The notes under the pieces: generated by a model | Told to the model about the DNA's origin: nothing | The model's input: the letters and a program-made list of their open reading frames with translations, nothing else | The model's database searches: none | Shown here: positions 38,079 through 58,972 of the stretch, in pieces | Layout of the letters: every line of letters starts with the position of its first letter | How positions within the stretch are numbered: position 1 is the first letter of the stretch | Made by a program: the position numbers and the translations under genes | DNA from: Candidatus Pelagibacterales bacterium | GTDB taxonomy: Bacteria; Pseudomonadota; Alphaproteobacteria; Pelagibacterales; AG-422-B15 | Direction: 5' to 3' | DNA length: 64,000 bases | Assembly: GCA_028412835.1 (NCBI GenBank) | Contig: JAONQW010000002.1 | Location: 62,001 to 126,000, forward strand

Positions 38079-39194
38079 ATGTCAAAACTATCTAAAATAA
38101 TATCTTTGATAGCTGTGTTTTTAGCTCCATCTCTTGCAACTGCAGCAGAAGTAAATGTAGTTTCTTGGGGAGGGGCTTATACAGAGAGTCAAAAATTAGG
38201 TTATGGTGACCCATATGCTGAGAAATCAGGAGTTGCTGTAAACTGGATCGATTATTCTGGTGGACTGGGTGAAATTAAAGCTCAAGTTGAATCAGGAGCA
38301 ATCACATGGGATATCATTGATGTGTACGCACGTGATACTATCATCGGTTGTGATGAAGGACTATTTGTTGAATTTGATTTCGACAATGACTTCCCGGCAG
38401 GTGTAAACGGTATGAAAGCAAGTGATGATTTCTTTGCTCCAATGCCTAGTAAATGTGCTGTAGGAAATATTCTATACTCATGGAACTATGCATTTAGTAC
38501 GGATGCATTTACATACAACGAACCAACTACAATGGCAGACTTCTTTAATCCCGATAAATATCCGGGCGTAAGATCTCTATATTCTAGTGCAATGTCTAAT
38601 TTAGAATTTGCTCTGGTTGCTGATGGAGTTGCTGGTGCTGATGTCTATGACTATATGGAAGAAAATGGTATCGATAGAGCGCTTGATAAAATAGCAGAAC
38701 TTTGCGATCACCCACAAGGTGGATGTATTTTCTGGTCTGCTGGCGCACAACCACCTGAGCAAATTGTTTCTGGTGAAGCTGTAATGGCAACTGGTTGGAA
38801 TGGCCGTCACTTTAACGCTATAGTTAATGAAGGTTCTCCAATGAAAATGGTTTGGGATGGTCAAGTCTTAGATTATGAGTACTTTGTTCTCGTAAAAGGT
38901 GGACCAAACCAAGCAGAAGCTATGGAAGCGCTAAAATACTTCACAAGTTCTGAAGGTTTAGCGGGTAGTGCGAAGCATATTGCTTATGCACCTTTCCGTA
39001 TCTCATCTCTTGATATTATCAATGCTGATGAGCCATGGTTTAATTCTCCTACAGCTGGTGCTGTAAGAATTATGCCTCACATGCCAACTGCACCTGCTAA
39101 TACTAAGAATTATGTCCTTATGAACCCAGAGTGGTACGCGGATAATAATACTGAGGTTAACGATGCGTGGGAAGCTTTCAAAGCTAACTTGTAA
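38079..39194 (+). CDS. potD: ABC transporter substrate-binding protein (PotD family)
   Basis: Signal peptide; VNVVSWGGAYTESQKLGYGDPYAEKSG; operon context. Confidence 0.88.
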   Translation: MSKLSKIISLIAVFLAPSLATAAEVNVVSWGGAYTESQKLGYGDPYAEKSGVAVNWIDYSGGLGEIKAQVESGAITWDIIDVYARDTIIGCDEGLFVEFDFDNDFPAGVNGMKASDDFFAPMPSKCAVGNILYSWNYAFSTDAFTYNEPTTMADFFNPDKYPGVRSLYSSAMSNLEFALVADGVAGADVYDYMEENGIDRALDKIAELCDHPQGGCIFWSAGAQPPEQIVSGEAVMATGWNGRHFNAIVNEGSPMKMVWDGQVLDYEYFVLVKGGPNQAEAMEALKYFTSSEGLAGSAKHIAYAPFRISSLDIINADEPWFNSPTAGAVRIMPHMPTAPANTKNYVLMNPEWYADNNTEVNDAWEAFKANL

Positions 39195-44549: not shown

Positions 44550-45869
44550 TTAGCAATCAATTGCATTATTACGTTGCCAATCGTATGCTGATAATTCAGA
44601 TTGAGCAGAGTATTCTTTTAACTCTCTTTTCTTAAGCCTTACAAAGTTAGATACAACCTTTGGTGAAAAAGCTTTTTTTGTAATATCGCTATTTTGGAAA
44701 AGTTTTATGGCACTATCAAGACTTGTAGGCAATTTTTTTACACGTTTAACTTTATGTCCCTCAGTATACATATTAATATCAAGCCTCTTACCGGGTTTGC
44801 GATTATTATTAATACCATCAAGGCCAAGAGCCAATAAACCAGCCTGAAGTAGGTAAGGATTTGCTGAACCATCAGCATGTCTTACTTCAAATCTTCCAGT
44901 ATCAGGAATTCTAATCATGTGGGTACGGTTATTTCCTGTATAGGTGACTGTACTTGGTGACCAAGTAGCACCTGATAACGTATTGGAAGCTCCAATTCGA
45001 CTATAACTATTTACAGATGGATTAAACAATGCCGAAAAACAGTCAGCAGATTTCATTATTCCACCTATAAATGAATACCCAAGTTTTGATAATCCTAATT
45101 CACCTTCACTATCCTCAAATAAATTTTTCTTTTTTTTCATATCCCAAACTGAAACATGCGCATGACATCCATTGCCAGTTAAATTTGGAAAAGGCTTGGC
45201 CATAAATGTTGCTCTTAATCCGTGTTTTTCTGCAATTGATTTAGCCATAAATTTAAAAAAAACATGACGATCTGCAGTTGTAAGGCAATCAGCGTAATGC
45301 CAATTCATTTCAAATTGTCCATTAGCATCCTCATGATCATTTTGATAAGGTTTCCATCCTAACTTTAACATAGCATCACATATTTCTTTGATAACGTCAT
45401 ATCTTCGCATCAGCATTGATTGATCGTAACAAGGCTTTGCTGCAACATCTCTGGGATCACTTATTTCTGTACCATCTTCACTAAGTAAGAAGAATTCACA
45501 TTCAACTCCTGTTTGCATGACCATATTTTTTTCTGCTAATTTTTTAATTTGTTTTTTTAGAATCACACGTGGTGACTGTTCAACAATTTTTCCATCCATA
45601 TATAGATCACTTGCAAGCCAACCAATTTCTGGTTGCCACGGTAATTGAATTAAACTGTCTGGATCAGGAATTGCTAACATATCTGAGTCAGCTGGTGACA
45701 TATCAAGATATGTGGCAAAGCCACCAAAACCAGCACCATTTTTTGCCATTTCATTGATAGCTTGTGACGGCACAAGTTTTGCTCTTAAAACACCAAATAA
45801 ATCTACAAAGCTAACTAAGAAGTACTTAATTTTTTTTTGAGATGCAATTTTTGATAGGTTGATGCTCAT
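44550..45869 (-). CDS. GlnT/GmaS-type glutamine synthetase (gamma-glutamylmethylamide synthetase candidate)
   Basis: GVECEFFLLSEDG, NDHEDANGQFEMNW, KPFPNLTGNGCHAHVSVWD, RFEVRHADGSANPYLLQAGLLALGLDGI; adjacent to MgsABC-type genes. Confidence 0.88.
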   Translation of the reverse strand: MSINLSKIASQKKIKYFLVSFVDLFGVLRAKLVPSQAINEMAKNGAGFGGFATYLDMSPADSDMLAIPDPDSLIQLPWQPEIGWLASDLYMDGKIVEQSPRVILKKQIKKLAEKNMVMQTGVECEFFLLSEDGTEISDPRDVAAKPCYDQSMLMRRYDVIKEICDAMLKLGWKPYQNDHEDANGQFEMNWHYADCLTTADRHVFFKFMAKSIAEKHGLRATFMAKPFPNLTGNGCHAHVSVWDMKKKKNLFEDSEGELGLSKLGYSFIGGIMKSADCFSALFNPSVNSYSRIGASNTLSGATWSPSTVTYTGNNRTHMIRIPDTGRFEVRHADGSANPYLLQAGLLALGLDGINNNRKPGKRLDINMYTEGHKVKRVKKLPTSLDSAIKLFQNSDITKKAFSPKVVSNFVRLKKRELKEYSAQSELSAYDWQRNNAIDC

Positions 45870-46093
45870 AATATGTTTAATTATGCTTCCTCATTTAAAA
45901 AAAAACAATACATAAATATTTATACTTTTAAGGAATTTTCAGGGACTAGACGTCTACATTAATTTCCGCTAACATTTATTCTTTAATATTTAAGTATTAT
46001 TTAACTCAAATTTCTATCGGTCAGTAAGCAAAAAATGCAAATTTTAAAAGATACCTTGTTGCTAAAAACTATACAGTCGAAGGCAAAAAACTA

Positions 46094-46978
46094 ATGTGTG
46101 GAATTGTAGGATTGTATCTTAAAACTAATAAATATGAAAAGTCGCTAGGCATATTTTTATCGAAGATGTTAGATAATATGGAAACGCGAGGACCAGATAG
46201 TGCCGGTTTTGCAATTTATACCAAAGAGGATAAAAAAAATTATAAATATTCTATCTGCCTCAATGATTTAAGTGAGAATGATTTTAAAAAGAAAATCAAT
46301 AAACTACTAAAAAAGAATACTATTAAGAAGTTTTCTGATCATATAATTTTAGATACTCCTGAGAAACCAAATAAAGTACTCAATTTATTAAAACATAACC
46401 TACAAGAAGTTTCACTGGTAGGTTATGGCAAAAGTATAAATATTTTTAAGCAAACAGGGAATCCAAGAGATATTGTAAAAAACTTCAACTTATCTTCTTT
46501 TTCAGGATCGCATGGTATTGGCCATACTAGAATGGCTACAGAAAGCGCAATAACTACTGAAGGCTCGCATCCTTATTCCACAGCAGAAGATGAATGTCTG
46601 GTACATAACGGCTCACTATCGAACCACAATAATGTGAGAAGAACTCTAATCAAAAAAGGTGAAAGCTTTAGTTCTGAAAACGATACTGAAGTTGCAGCTG
46701 GATATATCTCTAGTCAAATTTCTGCAGGTAAAGATCTTGAGAGCACTTTAAAAGAAAGTTTAAAAAATTTAGATGGATTTTATACCTTTATCGCCGGTAC
46801 AAAAAAAGGGTTTGCCTTATTAAGAGATGAAATAGCTTGTAAGCCAGCAGTTGTTGCAGAAACAGATGATTATGTTGCGATAGCATCAGAGTTTCAAGCA
46901 ATGGCACATTTGCCTGGTGTAAATGAAGCAAATATTTTTGAACCTGAGCCTGGGATTGTGTATTCGTGGGGCAATTGA
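46094..46978 (+). CDS. Class II glutamine amidotransferase (MgsA/GlxB type)
   Basis: MCGIVGLYLK N-terminal Cys, GIGHTRMATESAITTEGSHPYS, LVHNGSLSNHNNVRR. Confidence 0.9.
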   Translation: MCGIVGLYLKTNKYEKSLGIFLSKMLDNMETRGPDSAGFAIYTKEDKKNYKYSICLNDLSENDFKKKINKLLKKNTIKKFSDHIILDTPEKPNKVLNLLKHNLQEVSLVGYGKSINIFKQTGNPRDIVKNFNLSSFSGSHGIGHTRMATESAITTEGSHPYSTAEDECLVHNGSLSNHNNVRRTLIKKGESFSSENDTEVAAGYISSQISAGKDLESTLKESLKNLDGFYTFIAGTKKGFALLRDEIACKPAVVAETDDYVAIASEFQAMAHLPGVNEANIFEPEPGIVYSWGN

Positions 46979-47661
46979 TGAAGTTAGATTTAAAAAAATT
47001 AGCCTTAAGAGATGTGAATTCAAAACTGCAAAGTTTTGATAAAAGTAGCAAAGAAAAAGATTTTACAATTATTAATCCTGAGGGTTGTCATGCTTTATGT
47101 GTTGGTTTGGTGCATGCAATTAGTGTCACAATTAATGGACATGTTGGCTACTACTGTGCTGGCATGAATCAAAGTGCGCATATCACAATCAATGGCAATG
47201 TAAGCACAGGTGTTGGAGAAAATATGATGTCAGGAATTGTCCATGTAAAAGGCAACGCCTCACAATCTGCTGGAGCGACTGCACATGGTGGCTTGTTAAT
47301 TATAGACGGTAATGCCAGCTCGAGATGTGGTATATCTATGAAAGGCGTTGATATTGTAGTTAAAGGATCAGTTGGTCATATGTCTGCATTTATGGCCCAA
47401 TCTGGTACTTTATTGGTATGTGGTGACGCGGGAGATGCTCTTGGAGATAGCTTATATGAAACTGAAATTTTTGTTAAAGGCAAAGTTAAGTCACTGGGAG
47501 TTGACTGCATTGAAAAAAAAATAAAACCTAAGCATATAAAAAAAATAATAGAGCTATTAAAAAAAAGTAAGATTAAAAATATAAAACCTGAACAATTTAA
47601 AAGATATGGGTCAGCAAGAAAATTATATAATTTCAATATAGACAATGTATCTGAGTATTAA
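46966..47661 (+). CDS. Glutamate synthase GXGXG-domain subunit (MgsB/GlxC type)
   Basis: Beta-helix-like Gly repeats (INGHVGYYCAGMNQSAHITINGNVSTGVGENMMSG); overlaps upstream gene. Confidence 0.85.
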   Translation: MGQLMKLDLKKLALRDVNSKLQSFDKSSKEKDFTIINPEGCHALCVGLVHAISVTINGHVGYYCAGMNQSAHITINGNVSTGVGENMMSGIVHVKGNASQSAGATAHGGLLIIDGNASSRCGISMKGVDIVVKGSVGHMSAFMAQSGTLLVCGDAGDALGDSLYETEIFVKGKVKSLGVDCIEKKIKPKHIKKIIELLKKSKIKNIKPEQFKRYGSARKLYNFNIDNVSEY

Positions 47662-47663
47662 AC

Positions 47664-48992
47664 ATGAACGATAAAACTAAAACACATCCAAGAATTTCAG
47701 CAACCTTTGATGAATACACTAATTCTGAAATTCGTAGAGCAGCTGAAACAGGAATTTATGATATAAGAGGAGGGGGTTCAAAACGAAGACTTCCACATTT
47801 CGATGATTTATTATTTCTTGGTGCTTCAATTTCTAGATACCCATTAGAAGGCTATAGAGAGACTTGTAATACTAAAGTGACTTTAGGAACAAGGTACGCA
47901 AAAAAACCACTTGAACTTGATATTCCAGTTACAGTTGCTGGCATGAGCTTTGGGGCTTTATCTGGTCCTGCAAAAGAGGCATTGGGTCGTGGGGCAAGTG
48001 CTGCTGGAACTTCTACTACAACTGGTGATGGAGGCATGACTCCTGAGGAAAGAGGACAATCAAAACACTTAGTTTATCAATTATTACCCTCAAGGTATGG
48101 AATGAATCCAAATGATTTGAGAAAAGCTGATGCCATCGAAGTTGTTATAGGCCAAGGAGCAAAGCCTGGTGGTGGAGGAATGTTGCTTGGACAAAAAATT
48201 GATGATCGTGTGGCAGAAATGCGAACACTTCCTAAAGGTGTTGATCAACGATCTGCATGTCGACATCCGGATTGGACTGGACCAGATGATTTAAAAATTA
48301 AAATTCTAGAATTAAGAGAGATAACCAACTGGCAAGTGCCTATTTTTATTAAAATTGCCGGAGCAAGACCTTATTATGATACGGCCTTAGCTATTAAGGC
48401 AGGTGCAGATGTTGTGGTTATCGATGGCATGCAAGGCGGTACTGCAGCAACCCAAGAAGTATTCATTGAAAATGTTGGTCAACCAACCTTAGCGTGTATT
48501 AGACCCGCAGTTGAAGCATTGCAAGATTTAGATATGCACCGAGAGGTGCAATTAATTATATCGGGTGGCATTAGAAATGGAGCAGATGCTGCAAAAGCTA
48601 TAGCATTGGGTGCTGATGCAGTATCAATTGGATCTGCTGCAATGATTGCTATTGGCGATAATGATCCTAAATGGGAAGCTGAATATCAGGAGTTAGGTAC
48701 TATGGCTGGTGCCTATGATGACTGGCATGAAGGCAAAGACCCAGCTGGAATTTTTACCCAAGATCCAACTCTAATGAAAAGATTAGACCCAGTTAAAGCT
48801 GGCAAAAGATTGTCAAATTTTTTAAAAGTAATGACTTTGGAGGCACAAACAATAGCAAGGGCTTGTGGTAAGAATGATCTTCATAATCTTGAACCAGAAG
48901 ATTTAGTAGCATTAACTTTAGAAGCGGCAGCTATGGCAAAAGTTCCCCTGGCTGGGACTGATTGGATACCTGGAGCTAAAAAAAATAAGTAA
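47664..48992 (+). CDS. FMN-binding glutamate synthase domain protein (MgsC/GlxD type)
   Basis: DDLLFLGASISRYPLEGYRE, GASAAGTSTTTGDGGMTPEE, KPGGGGMLLGQKI, VVIDGMQGGTAATQEVF. Confidence 0.92.
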   Translation: MNDKTKTHPRISATFDEYTNSEIRRAAETGIYDIRGGGSKRRLPHFDDLLFLGASISRYPLEGYRETCNTKVTLGTRYAKKPLELDIPVTVAGMSFGALSGPAKEALGRGASAAGTSTTTGDGGMTPEERGQSKHLVYQLLPSRYGMNPNDLRKADAIEVVIGQGAKPGGGGMLLGQKIDDRVAEMRTLPKGVDQRSACRHPDWTGPDDLKIKILELREITNWQVPIFIKIAGARPYYDTALAIKAGADVVVIDGMQGGTAATQEVFIENVGQPTLACIRPAVEALQDLDMHREVQLIISGGIRNGADAAKAIALGADAVSIGSAAMIAIGDNDPKWEAEYQELGTMAGAYDDWHEGKDPAGIFTQDPTLMKRLDPVKAGKRLSNFLKVMTLEAQTIARACGKNDLHNLEPEDLVALTLEAAAMAKVPLAGTDWIPGAKKNK

Positions 48993-49353: not shown

Positions 49354-49857
49354 TTATTTAACTAAACCAATTAATCTATTTAGATAATCTTTATTATTCC
49401 ATCTCGTTATTAGTTTTCCCAAGTCATGAGTTGTCTCTAAGGCAAATGATCCAAAAATCTTTTGAAAATTAGTTCCGAGAATAATTGATTTATTATTCAT
49501 AGCTAATAATTTCTCTTTTATTAAACTATCAATTTTTCTGTTTACTGTTTCACGAGGTAAATTTAAAGCGGAAGAAATACTTGTGACTGAAAGCCCAGAA
49601 TTTTTTTTTATTTTCTCATTAATGATTTCCTCAAATCTAAATGATAGATCATCAATTGAATTAGATCCTGATTTATTAATAGTATTAAGATAATAACCCA
49701 GAGTTATTTGAAGTATCATGAAGCTTTCATAATCAATTTTGAGTACTTGCCTAACCCTAAGATAAAAGTTAGATAAAAATATTGACCAATCATATAATCC
49801 TGAAGAAAAATCAGAAGTGATTGGTACTTTAAGTTCTTGATTAATATAGTTTTTCAT
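49354..49857 (-). CDS. Helix-turn-helix transcriptional regulator
   Basis: LSVTSISSALNLPRETVNRKIDSLIKEKLLAMNN winged-HTH pattern; divergent from surface protein gene. Confidence 0.7.
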   Translation of the reverse strand: MKNYINQELKVPITSDFSSGLYDWSIFLSNFYLRVRQVLKIDYESFMILQITLGYYLNTINKSGSNSIDDLSFRFEEIINEKIKKNSGLSVTSISSALNLPRETVNRKIDSLIKEKLLAMNNKSIILGTNFQKIFGSFALETTHDLGKLITRWNNKDYLNRLIGLVK

Positions 49858-49969: not shown

Positions 49970-52900
49970 ATGTATACCAAGATATTTGTTTTAAAAAGCT
50001 ACAACTTATTACTAGTAATTATTACATTAACTGTTTTTTTAAGCACTAGCCTTGAAGCGGCAGATTATTATTGGACTGCTCAGGATGATGGGAGTACAAA
50101 AAATTGGTCTCATAGTCATAACTGGTCAGATAAAAGTGGCAACTCAATAAGTGGTTACCCTAATATTAGAAATGATAATGCTATATTCCAAACTGATGCA
50201 GCAGATGTCACGATAGATCGCTATGTAAGAATGGGAAAAATAACTATAAAAAATGCTTACACTGGAACTATAAATTTAAATGGCAATATATTAAATCCAA
50301 CAAGAGGATTTGCTCAATACAATGGAACAATACTAATACCTGCAAACTCTGACTTCAGAGTACATGGTAATGCAGCTGTTTTATATGATGGTGCTACAAT
50401 TACTTCACAGGGAGATGACAGTAATATTAAAATACAGCACAACTTAATTTTTAAAAATGGTTCAACAATTAATGCACCTAATTCCAATTCTGCATTTGAA
50501 GTCAGAGGAGGATTTAGAAATGAAGGTGGTACATTCAATCATAATAGTGGAACTCTAATAATGAATACTAGTAACAATTGGGGCGAGGCTGCGATCAAAT
50601 TCACTGGAACTGGATCCTTTTATAATATTGATTTTAGAGGAAACGTTAACAAAAAGATACATAATGATATCACAGTTGATAATAATTTATATATTAGAGG
50701 CAATGGTGATCTAATTGGTGGCACATCCAGCAGTGGGAAAAATATAACTATAAAAGGTGATTGGTGGCAACAATCTGGTAAAAACAACTTTACACACGCC
50801 AATGGAACAGTAACTTTTTCTGGATCAAGTAGTCAAAATATAACAAGTAATAATAATTTTCGTAATATCATAATCAATAATCCTTCTGGAGTTTTATTGG
50901 CAAATGACCTTACAAATATAACTTCTACACTAACAATTAATAATGGTTCTACATTGGATATTAATGGACAAGACCTGACAGCTGTGACTTTGGTAAATAA
51001 TGGTAATTTACAACTTTTAGGATCTGAAACAGTCAATATTACTACGATGGATACTGACAGTGGAACTGTTACTTATGATGGTTCTGGGGCTACTGGATTA
51101 GCTGCAGGTGATAATTATTATAATCTAATTTTTAATCAGTCTGGTACATCTACCTTGGATGCAAATTTAGATGTTAATGGGTCAGTTAGCATTTCTAGTG
51201 GAACATTAGATGCCAGCACAAGTAATTATAATATTAATGTTGGTGGTGATTGGACCAATAATGGGAGTTTTATATCTCGATCAGGACTGGTAACTTTTGA
51301 TAATAATTCTGATATATTTGCTGGAGGTACAAGTGCCACAAAAGATTTTAATAATGTAACTTTAAGTGGTGCAGTTGGAAGTCAGTCAGACAATATTCTT
51401 ATTGGTGGCAATTTTATATTAAGTGGCACAGGCACCTGGTATACAAATTGTAATACTATGACAATAAGTGGTAGTACAACAAATAATAGTGGTACGATTT
51501 CAGATACACTTACACCAACTGTATCATTTGATCCTGCAAATAGTTCTTCAACCCATGCTGCAAGTGACAATATTATTCTTACTTTTAATACAGCTATAAG
51601 AAAAGCTTCAGATAATAGTGACTTAACTGATTCTAATGTAGATGCTCACATTACTCTTAAAGATGCTAATTCGAGTGGATCTAATATTAATTTTGATGCA
51701 ACTATAGATGCTAGCGATAAAGTAATTACTATTAACCCTTCATCTGATCTAAATAGTTCACAAGTAGTCTATGTTGCTATTGGCAATACAGTCGAGAATG
51801 TTTGTAACACCGCATTGAGTGCTTCCTCTGCAACATTTACAACTGCCGATTCAACTGACCCCGTCTTAAGTTCATCTAGTCCAGCCGATGAAGCTACTGC
51901 AATTGCTGTAGATACTAATATTGTCTTAACATTTAATGAGGCTGTAGATGCTGAAAGTGGCAATATAATAATTGTTAGGTCTGAAGACGGCTCAACAGTC
52001 GAAACAATTGATGTTACTGACAGTCAAGTATCTGGTTCAGGATCAACAGAAATTACAATAAATCCTTCTGTAACCTTAAATGAGCAGACGGCTTATCATT
52101 TAACCATTGATGAAACTGCATTTGATGATAGCTCAAGTAATTCTTATGTAGGCATAAGTGATACTTCAACAATAAATTTTACTACTGCCGATGTAACAGC
52201 TCCTACTGTAACATTTAATCCAGCAGATAGTGATACTGGAGTAGGACGTGATTCAAATATAAATATTGAATTTAATGAAGCTATAGTAAACGCCGATACC
52301 TCTGAGATAACTAATAGTAATATTGCAAGTTTAATTATACTCAAAGATTCTAATTCAAATGGAAGTGATCTTGCGTTTAGTGCAACAATAGATACAGATA
52401 AAAAAATAATAACTATTGATCCTAATAATAATTTTTCATTAGGTCAGACAGTCTATGTATCAATTTCAGCAGTTGAAGATGCATCAGCCAATGAAACTAG
52501 TTTATCATCATCTACTTTTACTGTGACAACTACTGGCGAGACAATAGCTACTATTATTCCTGCAGATAGTAGCACAGATGTTTTAGCAAGTAGCAATATT
52601 ACTATTGGATTTAATACTGCGATTAGAAATTTAAATGATACTGAAATCACAAATGACAATATACATAGTTTAATAACCCTTAAAGACACTGATACAAACG
52701 GTACTGATATTCCATTTACTATATCAATAAACACTGCCAAAAAAGTTATAACCATCAATCCTATTTCAGACCTCTCCAGTGGTCAGAATATTTATGTTGC
52801 TATTGGGGCAACTGTTGAAGATGCATTCGACAATGCTACAACTGCAGCCTCGTCTATATTCACTATTATCGATAATGCAGCTCCTATTTTTACATTTAAC

Positions 52901-54289
52901 CCAGCTGATTTAGATACAAACGTAATTGTCAGTTCAAATATTATAATTACTTTTAATGAATTAATCAGAAATATTAATAACTCAACTTTAACAGACTCTA
53001 ATGTTGATAGTTTAATTACTTTGAAAGATGAAGATAGCAGTGGTTCTAATATCACCTTCAATGCTACAATTGATGAAGATAAAAAAATAATAACCATTAA
53101 CCCTACAAATAATTTTAATAGCGAGCAAGTTATATACTTAGCTATTGCAGCTGTTGAAGATCAAGCAGGCAATGCCACAGCTGCTACAAATATTTCTTTT
53201 ACAGCTAGAGATAGTGATCCTCCTACTGTGTCATTTTTCCCAAGCAATAGCGATGTAAATGTTTTACGCAATTCAGATATTACAATTTCATTTACTGAAG
53301 TAATTCGTAACTTAAACGATTCCCCAATTACAGACGCTAATATTGATAGTCTAATTACATTAAAACAAAGTAATTCATCTGGTGCTGATATTTTATTTGA
53401 TGCAGTTGTTGACTCAACAAAGGAAAATATCACTATTACCCCAACAAGTAATTTACCCCTGAATCAAGTTATATACGTTGCAATTGGCGCTTCTGTAGAA
53501 GACGAATGGGATAATGCAATAACGGCATCTTCTGCGTCATTTACAACAATTGATGATAGGCTATCAGTAACCTTCGATCCTGCAGATGGAACAACAGGAC
53601 TGCCTGTCAACACAAATGTAATAATGACATTTTCTGACGCAATAAGACATCTAGATGACTCATTAATAACTAGCGCTAATGTTGATGATCTTATAACACT
53701 TGAATATTCTTTTAGTAGTTCACCCATACCATTTGATGCAACTATAGATACAGTAAAAAAAATTATAACAATCAACCCGACCAATAATTTAATTCCAGGA
53801 GATATTATCTATGTTTCAATAGACTCAGTTGAAAATAGTTCTGATGTTGCAACCGGATTAGCCGCTGGAACGTTCAGTGTTGATGATACTATCCCCCCAA
53901 ATGTATTGATTAGTCCATCTAATGGATCTACGAATATTGAAGCTGATGCAATAATAACAATATATTTTGACGAAGAAATTAGACTACTTAACAACACATC
54001 TATAACTAACATTAATGTAGATAGCTTAATTACTTTAAGAGATACTAATTCAAACGGTGCTGATATAGCATTTGATGCTACAATTGATATTCATAATCAA
54101 CTAATATCGATTAATCTTAATGAGAACTTAGCAAGTGAGCAGACGGTCTATATTTTAATTGGACCCTCAGTTGAAGATTCTTATGACAATGCTACTTCAA
54201 CTACATTTTCTGTTTTTTCAACTGGAGACAGTATACCACCAAGTGTAAGCATTGACGCTGTATTAACCGTATCAGAAGGAGGAGCATAA
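49970..54289 (+). CDS. Secreted multi-repeat surface protein (about eight Big_5-like Ig repeats), no beta barrel
   Basis: Signal peptide; repeats TPTVSFDPANSSSTHAASDNIILTFNTAIRKASDNS..., PPTVSFFPSNSDVNVLRNSDITISFTEVIRN... etc.; stops at ...IDAVLTVSEGGA. Confidence 0.85.
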   Translation: MYTKIFVLKSYNLLLVIITLTVFLSTSLEAADYYWTAQDDGSTKNWSHSHNWSDKSGNSISGYPNIRNDNAIFQTDAADVTIDRYVRMGKITIKNAYTGTINLNGNILNPTRGFAQYNGTILIPANSDFRVHGNAAVLYDGATITSQGDDSNIKIQHNLIFKNGSTINAPNSNSAFEVRGGFRNEGGTFNHNSGTLIMNTSNNWGEAAIKFTGTGSFYNIDFRGNVNKKIHNDITVDNNLYIRGNGDLIGGTSSSGKNITIKGDWWQQSGKNNFTHANGTVTFSGSSSQNITSNNNFRNIIINNPSGVLLANDLTNITSTLTINNGSTLDINGQDLTAVTLVNNGNLQLLGSETVNITTMDTDSGTVTYDGSGATGLAAGDNYYNLIFNQSGTSTLDANLDVNGSVSISSGTLDASTSNYNINVGGDWTNNGSFISRSGLVTFDNNSDIFAGGTSATKDFNNVTLSGAVGSQSDNILIGGNFILSGTGTWYTNCNTMTISGSTTNNSGTISDTLTPTVSFDPANSSSTHAASDNIILTFNTAIRKASDNSDLTDSNVDAHITLKDANSSGSNINFDATIDASDKVITINPSSDLNSSQVVYVAIGNTVENVCNTALSASSATFTTADSTDPVLSSSSPADEATAIAVDTNIVLTFNEAVDAESGNIIIVRSEDGSTVETIDVTDSQVSGSGSTEITINPSVTLNEQTAYHLTIDETAFDDSSSNSYVGISDTSTINFTTADVTAPTVTFNPADSDTGVGRDSNINIEFNEAIVNADTSEITNSNIASLIILKDSNSNGSDLAFSATIDTDKKIITIDPNNNFSLGQTVYVSISAVEDASANETSLSSSTFTVTTTGETIATIIPADSSTDVLASSNITIGFNTAIRNLNDTEITNDNIHSLITLKDTDTNGTDIPFTISINTAKKVITINPISDLSSGQNIYVAIGATVEDAFDNATTAASSIFTIIDNAAPIFTFNPADLDTNVIVSSNIIITFNELIRNINNSTLTDSNVDSLITLKDEDSSGSNITFNATIDEDKKIITINPTNNFNSEQVIYLAIAAVEDQAGNATAATNISFTARDSDPPTVSFFPSNSDVNVLRNSDITISFTEVIRNLNDSPITDANIDSLITLKQSNSSGADILFDAVVDSTKENITITPTSNLPLNQVIYVAIGASVEDEWDNAITASSASFTTIDDRLSVTFDPADGTTGLPVNTNVIMTFSDAIRHLDDSLITSANVDDLITLEYSFSSSPIPFDATIDTVKKIITINPTNNLIPGDIIYVSIDSVENSSDVATGLAAGTFSVDDTIPPNVLISPSNGSTNIEADAIITIYFDEEIRLLNNTSITNINVDSLITLRDTNSNGADIAFDATIDIHNQLISINLNENLASEQTVYILIGPSVEDSYDNATSTTFSVFSTGDSIPPSVSIDAVLTVSEGGA
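51509..54230 (+). repeat. Tandem ~340-nt Big_5/Ig-like protein repeats
   Basis: Recurring FxPADxxTxVxxxSNIxIxFNEAIRNxxxxxITxxNVDSLITLKDxxSxGxxIxFxATIDxxKKIITINPxxxLxxxQxVYVAI. Confidence 0.8.
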
Positions 54290-55917
54290 TGTCTAAAATG
54301 ATTAAGATAATATGTTTCTTAGCGTTTGCTTCAACTTCAAATCTTGCATACGCAGTTAATATTGCAACTAATTCAGATATAACTTTTTCATTTACAGAGG
54401 CGGTAAGATTAATAGATAACACAATTCTGACTAACGAAAATGTTGGAAGTTTAATTACTCTAAAAAATACTGACGCTAGTGGCACTAATCTTTCTTTTAC
54501 CGCTACAGTCAATTCAGCAAAAACGATAATTACAATTAATCCTACCAATAACTTTACTAGTGGTCAGATAATTTATGCTTATATTGGTGCAACCGTTGAA
54601 GATTTCAATGACAATGTAATACCTGCGACTAGTAAAACTTTTACGGCAGAATACCTCGTTACGGACTTAACAAACCCTCTTGATGATGAGGATTTTGTTG
54701 GATTGCTTAAGGCACAAACTGAAACAGCAAAAAGATTTATTCAGCAATCTACAACTTCAGTATTAAAGCGCATGGAGTGGTTAAGAAGAAACAAAAATGA
54801 AAACGAGTTATCTCATCAGGGAGTGAGCGTTAATTTCATTGATGCAGATTTTAACAATCTTTCAAATACACTGCAATTTTCAAATTTCCTTAACCAGTCA
54901 GCAGATTTATTTTCCAATAATTGGGCTGTGTGGAGTGAAGGCAATATTACTTTAGGAGAAGTCGATGCAAATGGAAATTCATCATTAAGAGATGTTAAAA
55001 CAAATGGTATAACATTTGGTATTGATAATAAAATTGATGCAAATCATATTTTAGGTCTGGCACTAAGAATAGGTAAGGATAATGTTGATGTTGGGTCTTT
55101 GGGTAATGCATTAGATACTGATACTTATAGCTTATCTCTTTATGGAACTATGCCATACGATGACAAAACATATATTGATGGCACTTTAGGAATCAGTTTG
55201 CTGGATATGAATCTTACAAGAAGTCATGCTTCAGGAACTTTAACTGGAAGTAGAGAAGGTAAACAATTATATGGTTCATTAGTATACAGTGCGGCACTAG
55301 AAGAAAATTTAATCAAAATAACACCATATGGTCGAATAGATGGAGGCTATACAATTTTATCTAGCTTTAGTGATACAGGAACAGTTGCCGCAATAAAATA
55401 TGATGAACAAAAGATTACATCAGCGATGATATCCCTTGGTATTTTAGTAGATGACGAGATTGAAATAGGTAATCTTAAGTTAAATAGGTATGGACGACTT
55501 GAATATGGAAAAGACATAAGTTCTTCATCAGATGCTACAGTTTCTTATGTAGCTGTGCCCAACACAAAATATATTCTCAGTATTGATGATGAGGAATCGA
55601 ATAATATTAGAGCTGCGTTTGGTACCGATATTGAAACCCAATACAAATGGTCATATCAATTTGATTATGAGGTAAACTATAGATCGGGTTTATCTCATCT
55701 TAATACATTTAGTGCGGCAGCATTCTATGAATTAGGGCTGGATAGTATTATCAGTCTCTCGTTAGACAGTGAGCTTTCAACACATTCAATAGCAAAACTT
55801 GAGTTAGACACCAGGCTAAAGAATGGATGGTTTTTAAATGGAGCATACGAGATGAAAGATTATAGAGATCTCAGTAATGAAAATATATTAAGGCTTCAAG
55901 CGGTAAGATATTTTTGA
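54289..55917 (+). CDS. Autotransporter beta-barrel protein with own signal peptide and one partial Big_5-like repeat
   Basis: TAATG overlap with upstream gene; AGGAGG SD 6 nt before ATG; signal MSKMIKIICFLAFASTSNLAYA; partial repeat; C-terminal barrel ending ...LQAVRYF. Confidence 0.82.
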   Translation: MSKMIKIICFLAFASTSNLAYAVNIATNSDITFSFTEAVRLIDNTILTNENVGSLITLKNTDASGTNLSFTATVNSAKTIITINPTNNFTSGQIIYAYIGATVEDFNDNVIPATSKTFTAEYLVTDLTNPLDDEDFVGLLKAQTETAKRFIQQSTTSVLKRMEWLRRNKNENELSHQGVSVNFIDADFNNLSNTLQFSNFLNQSADLFSNNWAVWSEGNITLGEVDANGNSSLRDVKTNGITFGIDNKIDANHILGLALRIGKDNVDVGSLGNALDTDTYSLSLYGTMPYDDKTYIDGTLGISLLDMNLTRSHASGTLTGSREGKQLYGSLVYSAALEENLIKITPYGRIDGGYTILSSFSDTGTVAAIKYDEQKITSAMISLGILVDDEIEIGNLKLNRYGRLEYGKDISSSSDATVSYVAVPNTKYILSIDDEESNNIRAAFGTDIETQYKWSYQFDYEVNYRSGLSHLNTFSAAAFYELGLDSIISLSLDSELSTHSIAKLELDTRLKNGWFLNGAYEMKDYRDLSNENILRLQAVRYF

Positions 55918-57928: not shown

Positions 57929-58972
57929 CTAATAATCTGGTGGTGAGTGCATTTCTGAAGCAATTACCAAAATATCATGTAGCATTGGTAACGACCATTT
58001 ACCCTTTAGATTATGCTTTTTATAATCTAAAATAAGATCACTCACAAAAATATTGTTATTTTTTTTTATTAAATATTTTTTATTTATTAATTTTTTTACA
58101 GAACGTCGAACAGTTGCAAAGGGTATTGCAGTAGATGCTGCAATCGAACTTATATTAACTGGCCTTAATATATCTGCCTCATAGAAATCTATATTTTTAG
58201 TATCAAAAATTTTTTTATTTTTATAAAAAAATAAGGCAGATGAAAGAATACAAGTCTCATTATAATTAAGGTTTGTATTTTGAATATAGGTTAGGGCTAT
58301 TAAGTAATACCAATGTAGAAGCATTAAGTTTTTTATATAAGAATCATCATCTAACTTGGAAAAATTAATATTACGAATTTTATGTTTGTTATTTAAAATT
58401 CCTTGACTAATTAAGCTGTCAATTAAAAAAGACCAATTCTTCGATAGCTGTTTCATGGCATTTAAATTATATTTTTTAAAAAGATTAGTATTGAATGGAA
58501 TGTCAAAATTTAATATCAGGCCAGCAGTTTTATCTTTTTGTATGAGATCAATATTCATCCATTCTTTAACAAATTTTCTAGATGTTTCTTTGGGAATTTT
58601 TGTATTTTTACTTATTGTCTCCAGTGTATTTTTATTATTGTAAACTGCTGGAAATTCAAATTTTAGTATTTGATGATTTATTAATTCATTAAATGGTAAT
58701 TGAAATTTTTTTAATGCATCATGGTATTGTGCGTTTGAATTATTTATGTGAAAAATAGCTGAATTAATTATAGTAAAGCTTAGAGGTGGTAGAAGATTTT
58801 GTTGTGCCCGAGATCCAAATGTTTCTTCTAATTTATTTCCCGCACTTACAGTATTGATAAAAAATTCACTAAAATCAGAGAAGTGTTGTAAGAATAATAT
58901 ATGAGCATTCAGTCTCGATATTGTTCCTAAAATTTTCTCAACTTCTTGTATGTTGTCAGGATTCAACATCAA
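57929..58972 (-). CDS. Transcriptional regulator with two HTH modules
   Basis: NTLETISKNTKIPKETSRKFVKEWMNIDLI and NISSIAASTAIPFATVRRSVKKLINKKYLI; second resembles the 49354..49857 regulator. Confidence 0.7.
   Translation of the reverse strand: MMLNPDNIQEVEKILGTISRLNAHILFLQHFSDFSEFFINTVSAGNKLEETFGSRAQQNLLPPLSFTIINSAIFHINNSNAQYHDALKKFQLPFNELINHQILKFEFPAVYNNKNTLETISKNTKIPKETSRKFVKEWMNIDLIQKDKTAGLILNFDIPFNTNLFKKYNLNAMKQLSKNWSFLIDSLISQGILNNKHKIRNINFSKLDDDSYIKNLMLLHWYYLIALTYIQNTNLNYNETCILSSALFFYKNKKIFDTKNIDFYEADILRPVNISSIAASTAIPFATVRRSVKKLINKKYLIKKNNNIFVSDLILDYKKHNLKGKWSLPMLHDILVIASEMHSPPDY

Follow-up and report, generated by a model that had tools for sequence, protein, structure and literature searches.

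The gene pair examined here lies in a 64,000-nucleotide stretch of DNA (the window) from a marine, SAR11-type member of the Pelagibacterales, and it raises the question of how an autotransporter came to be divided between two overlapping genes, and whether the two products still act together. Classical autotransport depends on a covalent link between passenger and barrel, and a passenger translocated in trans would be unusual. At this locus the signal peptide, the passenger and the barrel are not on one polypeptide: they are spread over two ORFs that share one base in a TAATG stop-start, with no stop codon inside the 1439 and 542 codons of the pair, and all that the barrel ORF retains as a mini-passenger is a single truncated Ig-like domain. 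The coordinates of the features are collected in Table 1.

Table 1. Features of the split autotransporter locus, in window coordinates.
Feature	Position	Strand	Size	Basis and details
Substrate-binding protein gene, PotA-type ABC operon	38079..39194	+		Window orthologue of the donor gene
Passenger gene	49970..54289	+	1439 aa	ORF; Pfam Big_5, E 8.8e-74, 8 stretches
Strand A of ninth Big_5 domain (passenger tail), PPSVSIDAVLTVS	54236..54274	+		Alignment with fused PPTVSIDAVITAS; model
Insert	54275..54360	+	86 nt	Last four passenger codons/Shine-Dalgarno, TAATG, signal peptide, two mature codons (VN)
Shine-Dalgarno AGGAGG	54277..54282	+		6 nt 5' of the barrel-gene ATG; sequence
Barrel gene	54289..55917	+	542 aa	ORF, Pfam, AF2
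Acquired signal peptide, MSKMIKIICFLAFASTSNLAYA	54289..54354	+		AxA-type cleavage site before VN, deduced from sequence
Ninth Big_5 domain, strand B to end, without strand A	54361..54657	+		Pfam, AF2
Autotransporter beta-domain PF03797	54928..55671	+		E 1.6e-34, profile 1-255/255

The passenger consists, from its N-terminus, of a signal peptide, a repeat-rich region without a Pfam family, eight complete Big_5 repeats with a CopC-like Ig fold (aa 514-1422), and a C-terminal tail; a Pfam profile search of the 1439-aa protein found no barrel domain. The barrel protein consists of the acquired signal peptide, a Big_5 domain without strand A, a linker helix, and a barrel that matches the whole profile of the 12-strand domain PF03797, the mark of a type Va barrel. 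This layout agrees with the preliminary description, which had reported the overlapping ORFs with their Shine-Dalgarno motif, a passenger lacking a barrel followed by a gene that has one, and a signal peptide on the second gene leading into a Big_5 repeat partway; the Pfam match to that repeat begins at profile position 9. A sequence search of the PDB gave no match for either protein, and no relatives of the split pair were found in the viral contigs searched.

The position of the cut was placed with the help of a structural model. When an intact repeat was modeled with AF2 (pLDDT 94.5), strand A comprised residues 4-7 and strand B residues 21-25, and the closest solved fold was CopC (6nfq, E 2.7e-05), so that the Big_5 (PF13205) identity is upheld by both the profile match and the CopC-like Ig fold. 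In the ninth repeat, the sequence is cut behind residue 13. With this model-based boundary, strand A lies on the passenger tail and the mature barrel protein starts in the A-B linker. The signal peptide had been described as sitting where a repeat begins; it was found to lie inside the ninth repeat, after the first strand. That strand is indeed absent from the barrel protein, and it is still present as the C-terminus of the passenger. The truncated Ig domain was modeled by AF2 with a pLDDT of 84-92 and is followed by a low-confidence helix at 112-146 that matches the usual linker. Over the barrel, AF2 (run on an 8-row alignment) failed, with a poor pLDDT of 24-45, and the barrel topology therefore rests on Pfam.

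The split form occurs in 2 of the 53 family genomes. One is the window genome (G000), a MAG that is 72% complete, with 1.02 Mb in 36 contigs; the other is G003, a 98% complete MAG of a second species in the same genus, in which the passenger is interrupted by a contig end inside the repeat array, leaving 324 aa visible. Six genomes of the sister genus carry one open frame instead, complete in five of them (1971-1972 aa) and stopped by a contig end in the sixth. The barrel protein is approximately 70% identical to this fused form, starting only past the signal peptide. At the junction site the fused orthologues are free of gaps and read SIDAVITAS followed directly by IATNSDITF, whereas the split form reads SIDAVLTVS, EGGA and a stop, then MSKMIKIICFLAFASTSNLAYAVN and IATNSDITF. 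At the nucleotide level the difference is the 86-nt insert between TC(A/T) and ATT, which is absent from all fused orthologues and has left all of the target bases in place.

A sequencing or assembly artefact in a gene that is truly fused might be suspected in a MAG with repeats, the more so as the G003 contig ends inside the same repeat array. However, two species have the same insert, approximately 10% diverged, and the gene from which it was copied can be located; no plausible artefact yields such an insert. The presence of the same junction in the genome of the second species rules out an assembly error, and we give this explanation almost no weight.

In terms of polarity, the tree groups the two split copies in a single clade, sister to the fused copies, a topology that by itself would also allow the split form to be ancestral and the fused form to have arisen by deletion. 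That history would require exactly 86 nt to be removed with both the reading frame and the domain rebuilt, yet the insert was copied from another gene's 5' end and interrupts an Ig domain, and all of the outgroup autotransporters in the tree (more distant members of the family and the order) are single ORFs. A deletion is accordingly a very improbable origin of the fused form. The preliminary description had suggested that an ancestral single autotransporter was split and had called for a comparison of fused and split orthologues; the suggestion is borne out by the fused genes of the sister genus and by a clean insert of identified origin.

The source is an SBP_bac_8 gene, which encodes an ABC-transporter substrate-binding protein (SBP). 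Its 5' end is reproduced imperfectly in the insert, and the likeness spans the Shine-Dalgarno motif, the stop/start overlap, the signal peptide and the first two mature codons, VN. The SBP_bac_8 gene of G003, which sits after a PotA-type ATPase gene, is identical to the G003 insert at 77/86 positions and to the window insert at 74/86 (BLASTN E values of 1.7e-28 and 4.8e-24, respectively), and no further strong copy of the insert was found by BLASTN in either genome. Since the SBP orthologues have VN in their mature N-terminus (EVNVVSWGG), the copying ran from the SBP gene to the autotransporter. The window's own SBP gene was ruled out as the direct donor, as it is identical to the insert at only 57/85 positions, and for the same reason the copying probably took place in a lineage resembling G003. 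Gene fission through the capture of a signal peptide is thus close to proven.

The two split copies are far more alike than the genomes that carry them. Among 81 reciprocal best hits between G000 and G003, taken from approximately 0.3-0.4 Mb of stretches per genome, amino-acid identity had a median of 81%, and identity at fourfold sites one of 0.43 (sd 0.10). For the split genes, fourfold-site identity was 0.79-0.82 (dS of approximately 0.31), a value that was exceeded by one gene only among the sampled pairs. The downstream neighbor also differs, being a nitronate monooxygenase gene in the window and a RidA-like gene, as read from its sequence, in G003; the corresponding site of G002 is empty, and that of G004 holds no autotransporter. 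Because the pair has different locations in the two genomes and its similarity is far above the genome divergence, it was most likely transferred between species once it had been split, and it has probably spread horizontally in its split form.

Several other features of the region and of these genomes were observed. The autotransporter region is flanked by two genes, one on each side, whose winged-helix motifs look alike (window 49354-49857 and 57929-58972, minus strand); only the first has a Pfam HTH match, a weak one. Further upstream, at window 44550-48992, genes with glutamine-synthetase-like and GATase, GXGXG and glutamate-synthase domains look like a gamma-glutamylmethylamide/N-methylglutamate (methylamine) pathway; their glutamate-synthase subunit is near-identical in G002 and G004 and was not found in G001, G003 and the sampled sister genera. 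Two orthologues of the nitronate monooxygenase (G001:C21:14327-15250 and L161 310-1236) have a TAG in the matched stretch and slightly shorter C-termini, and in the G002 gene a TAG is the next-to-last codon. Another gene pair shared by G000 and G003 is unusually similar (98% amino-acid identity, fourfold-site identity 0.835; L123 10841-12016 and L104 135-788), perhaps owing to recent transfer or to strong constraint on the gene.

Since the insert is common to both copies of the split pair, all differences between the window and G003 postdate the split and can be read for selection. With a pooled synonymous difference of 0.253 as the neutral yardstick (two sequences, simple counting method), a pseudogenized autotransporter would be expected to have lost constraint in its pieces. 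No such loss was seen: 37 nonsynonymous changes were observed against 186 expected in the passenger (320 aa compared), and 33 against 249 in the barrel gene. The acquired signal peptide had 4 against 14 (P 4e-4), and the P values for these three parts ranged from 4e-4 to 1e-79. Within the divided domain, 20 changes against 58 expected were counted in the truncated Ig part, and 2 against 7.2 in the severed strand-A tail (P 0.015, which is modest taken alone). The four EGGA codons evolved neutrally (2 against 2.2), i.e., they are constrained only as a Shine-Dalgarno sequence. The strong purifying selection after the split indicates that passenger and barrel are both still useful.

Published split autotransporters have been judged differently. 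In the Rickettsia sca and Brucella bma loci, the autotransporter gene is present as consecutive ORFs that are called pseudogenes (PMC1388218, PMC8111173); those of Brucella bma arise through stops and frameshifts, and are recognized by having no ORF with both a signal peptide and a barrel (PMC8111173). By analogy with Rickettsia sca1 and Brucella bma, the insertion could have broken a surface adhesin here as well, with both pieces becoming pseudogenes, and only two MAGs are known to carry the split form. In contrast to those loci, however, the downstream ORF has gained a ribosome-binding site and a signal peptide, so that one ORF holds both signal peptide and barrel. In addition, the long frames are free of stops, passenger, barrel and signal peptide are all under strong purifying selection, and the split form has apparently spread horizontally. 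Decay is therefore largely refuted, and the selection after the split and the spread both contradict the possibility, raised in the preliminary description, that a recent disabling mutation produced the junction. That both halves are kept by selection suggests a natural two-part autotransporter.

How such a pair may work can be outlined as follows. A classical type Va autotransporter with Big_5 repeats was cut into a translationally coupled two-gene pair when 86 nt of an SBP gene, with its ribosome-binding site, start codon and signal peptide, were copied between the strand-A and strand-B codons in the last Big_5 domain. Judging from its own signal peptide, each half would then be exported through Sec. 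The barrel protein would insert into the outer membrane, bearing a Big_5 domain without strand A, and the passenger tail, which carries that strand, would complete the truncated Ig domain, resulting in a non-covalent re-association of passenger and barrel. Three features favor re-association: the Ig halves are complementary (strand A on the passenger, strands B onward on the barrel protein), the tail is conserved, and the genes were transferred jointly. The anatomy also fits the proposal of the preliminary description that a separately exported passenger may re-associate by complementing an incomplete strand. In G003, which is 98% complete, neither a second PF03797 barrel nor a TpsB-type POTRA_2 or a secretin was found, and the neighboring barrel is thus the only recognized type V partner of the passenger. 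From these data it is likely that the halves act together, and strand complementation is a good working hypothesis for how they may reassemble; our preferred reading, that the two halves of the split type Va autotransporter still form one unit with the tail completing the truncated domain, is given a probability of roughly 0.6.

Other routes were considered. Export of the passenger by a TPS or a secretin-based system was rejected, as neither POTRA_2 nor a secretin was found in G003. A programmed frameshift to a fused product was likewise rejected, because it would place the signal peptide in the middle of the Ig domain and because the ATG has its own strong Shine-Dalgarno motif.

Type Va barrels are not known to translocate passengers in trans in nature, nor is a mechanism known by which these 12-stranded barrels could do so. 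The main rival is therefore a periplasmic passenger: the two proteins would divide the labor without interacting, the barrel protein as a small autotransporter that shows one Ig-like domain, and the passenger as a periplasmic or otherwise released protein. A signal peptide on each protein fits such an arrangement, and selection on both genes does not require that the products interact. On the other hand, the severed strand A is conserved although the adjoining EGGA is not, the genes still overlap and were transferred together, and an Ig domain without strand A is expected to be unstable by itself. This arrangement is thus considered unlikely, if the most serious competitor, and a complementing pair remains the reading we prefer.

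The pair resembles several known systems in part. It shares the PF03797 barrel, the linker helix and the repeat passenger with the classical monomeric autotransporters (type Va), of which the fused orthologues are ordinary members, and it differs from them in having passenger and barrel on two polypeptides with a signal peptide on each. In two-partner secretion (type Vb), passenger and translocator are also separate, co-encoded and exported by Sec (PMC3297439). The same applies to this pair as far as its signal peptides indicate, but the barrel is of type Va instead of an Omp85/POTRA barrel, and the split is recent; profile searches found no POTRA_2 in G000 or G003, and no Pfam or NCBIfam match to a TPS domain in the passenger, and the pair is not a two-partner system. 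An autochaperone, the C-terminal region of a passenger, can aid passenger folding when it is supplied as a separate polypeptide (reviewed in PMC8151025); those separations are experimental, whereas this one is natural and runs through one Ig-like domain. The SAR11 coastal autotransporter adhesin of the Pelagibacterales is encoded by large single genes (approximately 5-9.5 kb) with variable repeats, with no split form found in the part of that source available to us (PMC12636525). In the open-access literature, neither a natural functional split autotransporter nor gene fission by signal-peptide insertion was found, an absence that is not proof. The pair could tentatively be regarded as a two-subunit variant of type V secretion, in which a type Va barrel and a separately exported passenger are joined by strand complementation after capture of a cassette in one step and horizontal spread, although we hold this to be somewhat less probable than not.

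Other autotransporters were also noted. The window genome has a second, fused one of 835 aa (L006 1405-3912, on G000:C35) that is 22% identical to the barrel protein, and Pelagibacterales family f2 has clusters of autotransporter genes side by side (G054:C3 61652-68094 and G042:C1 50830-56942).

In summary, the locus records a bacterial gene fission with unusual clarity: the recipient, the donor, the exact insert, the fused ancestor and the selection after the split can all be read in the sequence. It indicates that a single copying event can turn one secreted protein into two exported proteins encoded by overlapping genes. If the halves re-associate, the pair would be a naturally evolved autotransporter in trans, with a bearing on whether a covalent link between passenger and barrel is needed, and it would offer a ready system for probing that question.
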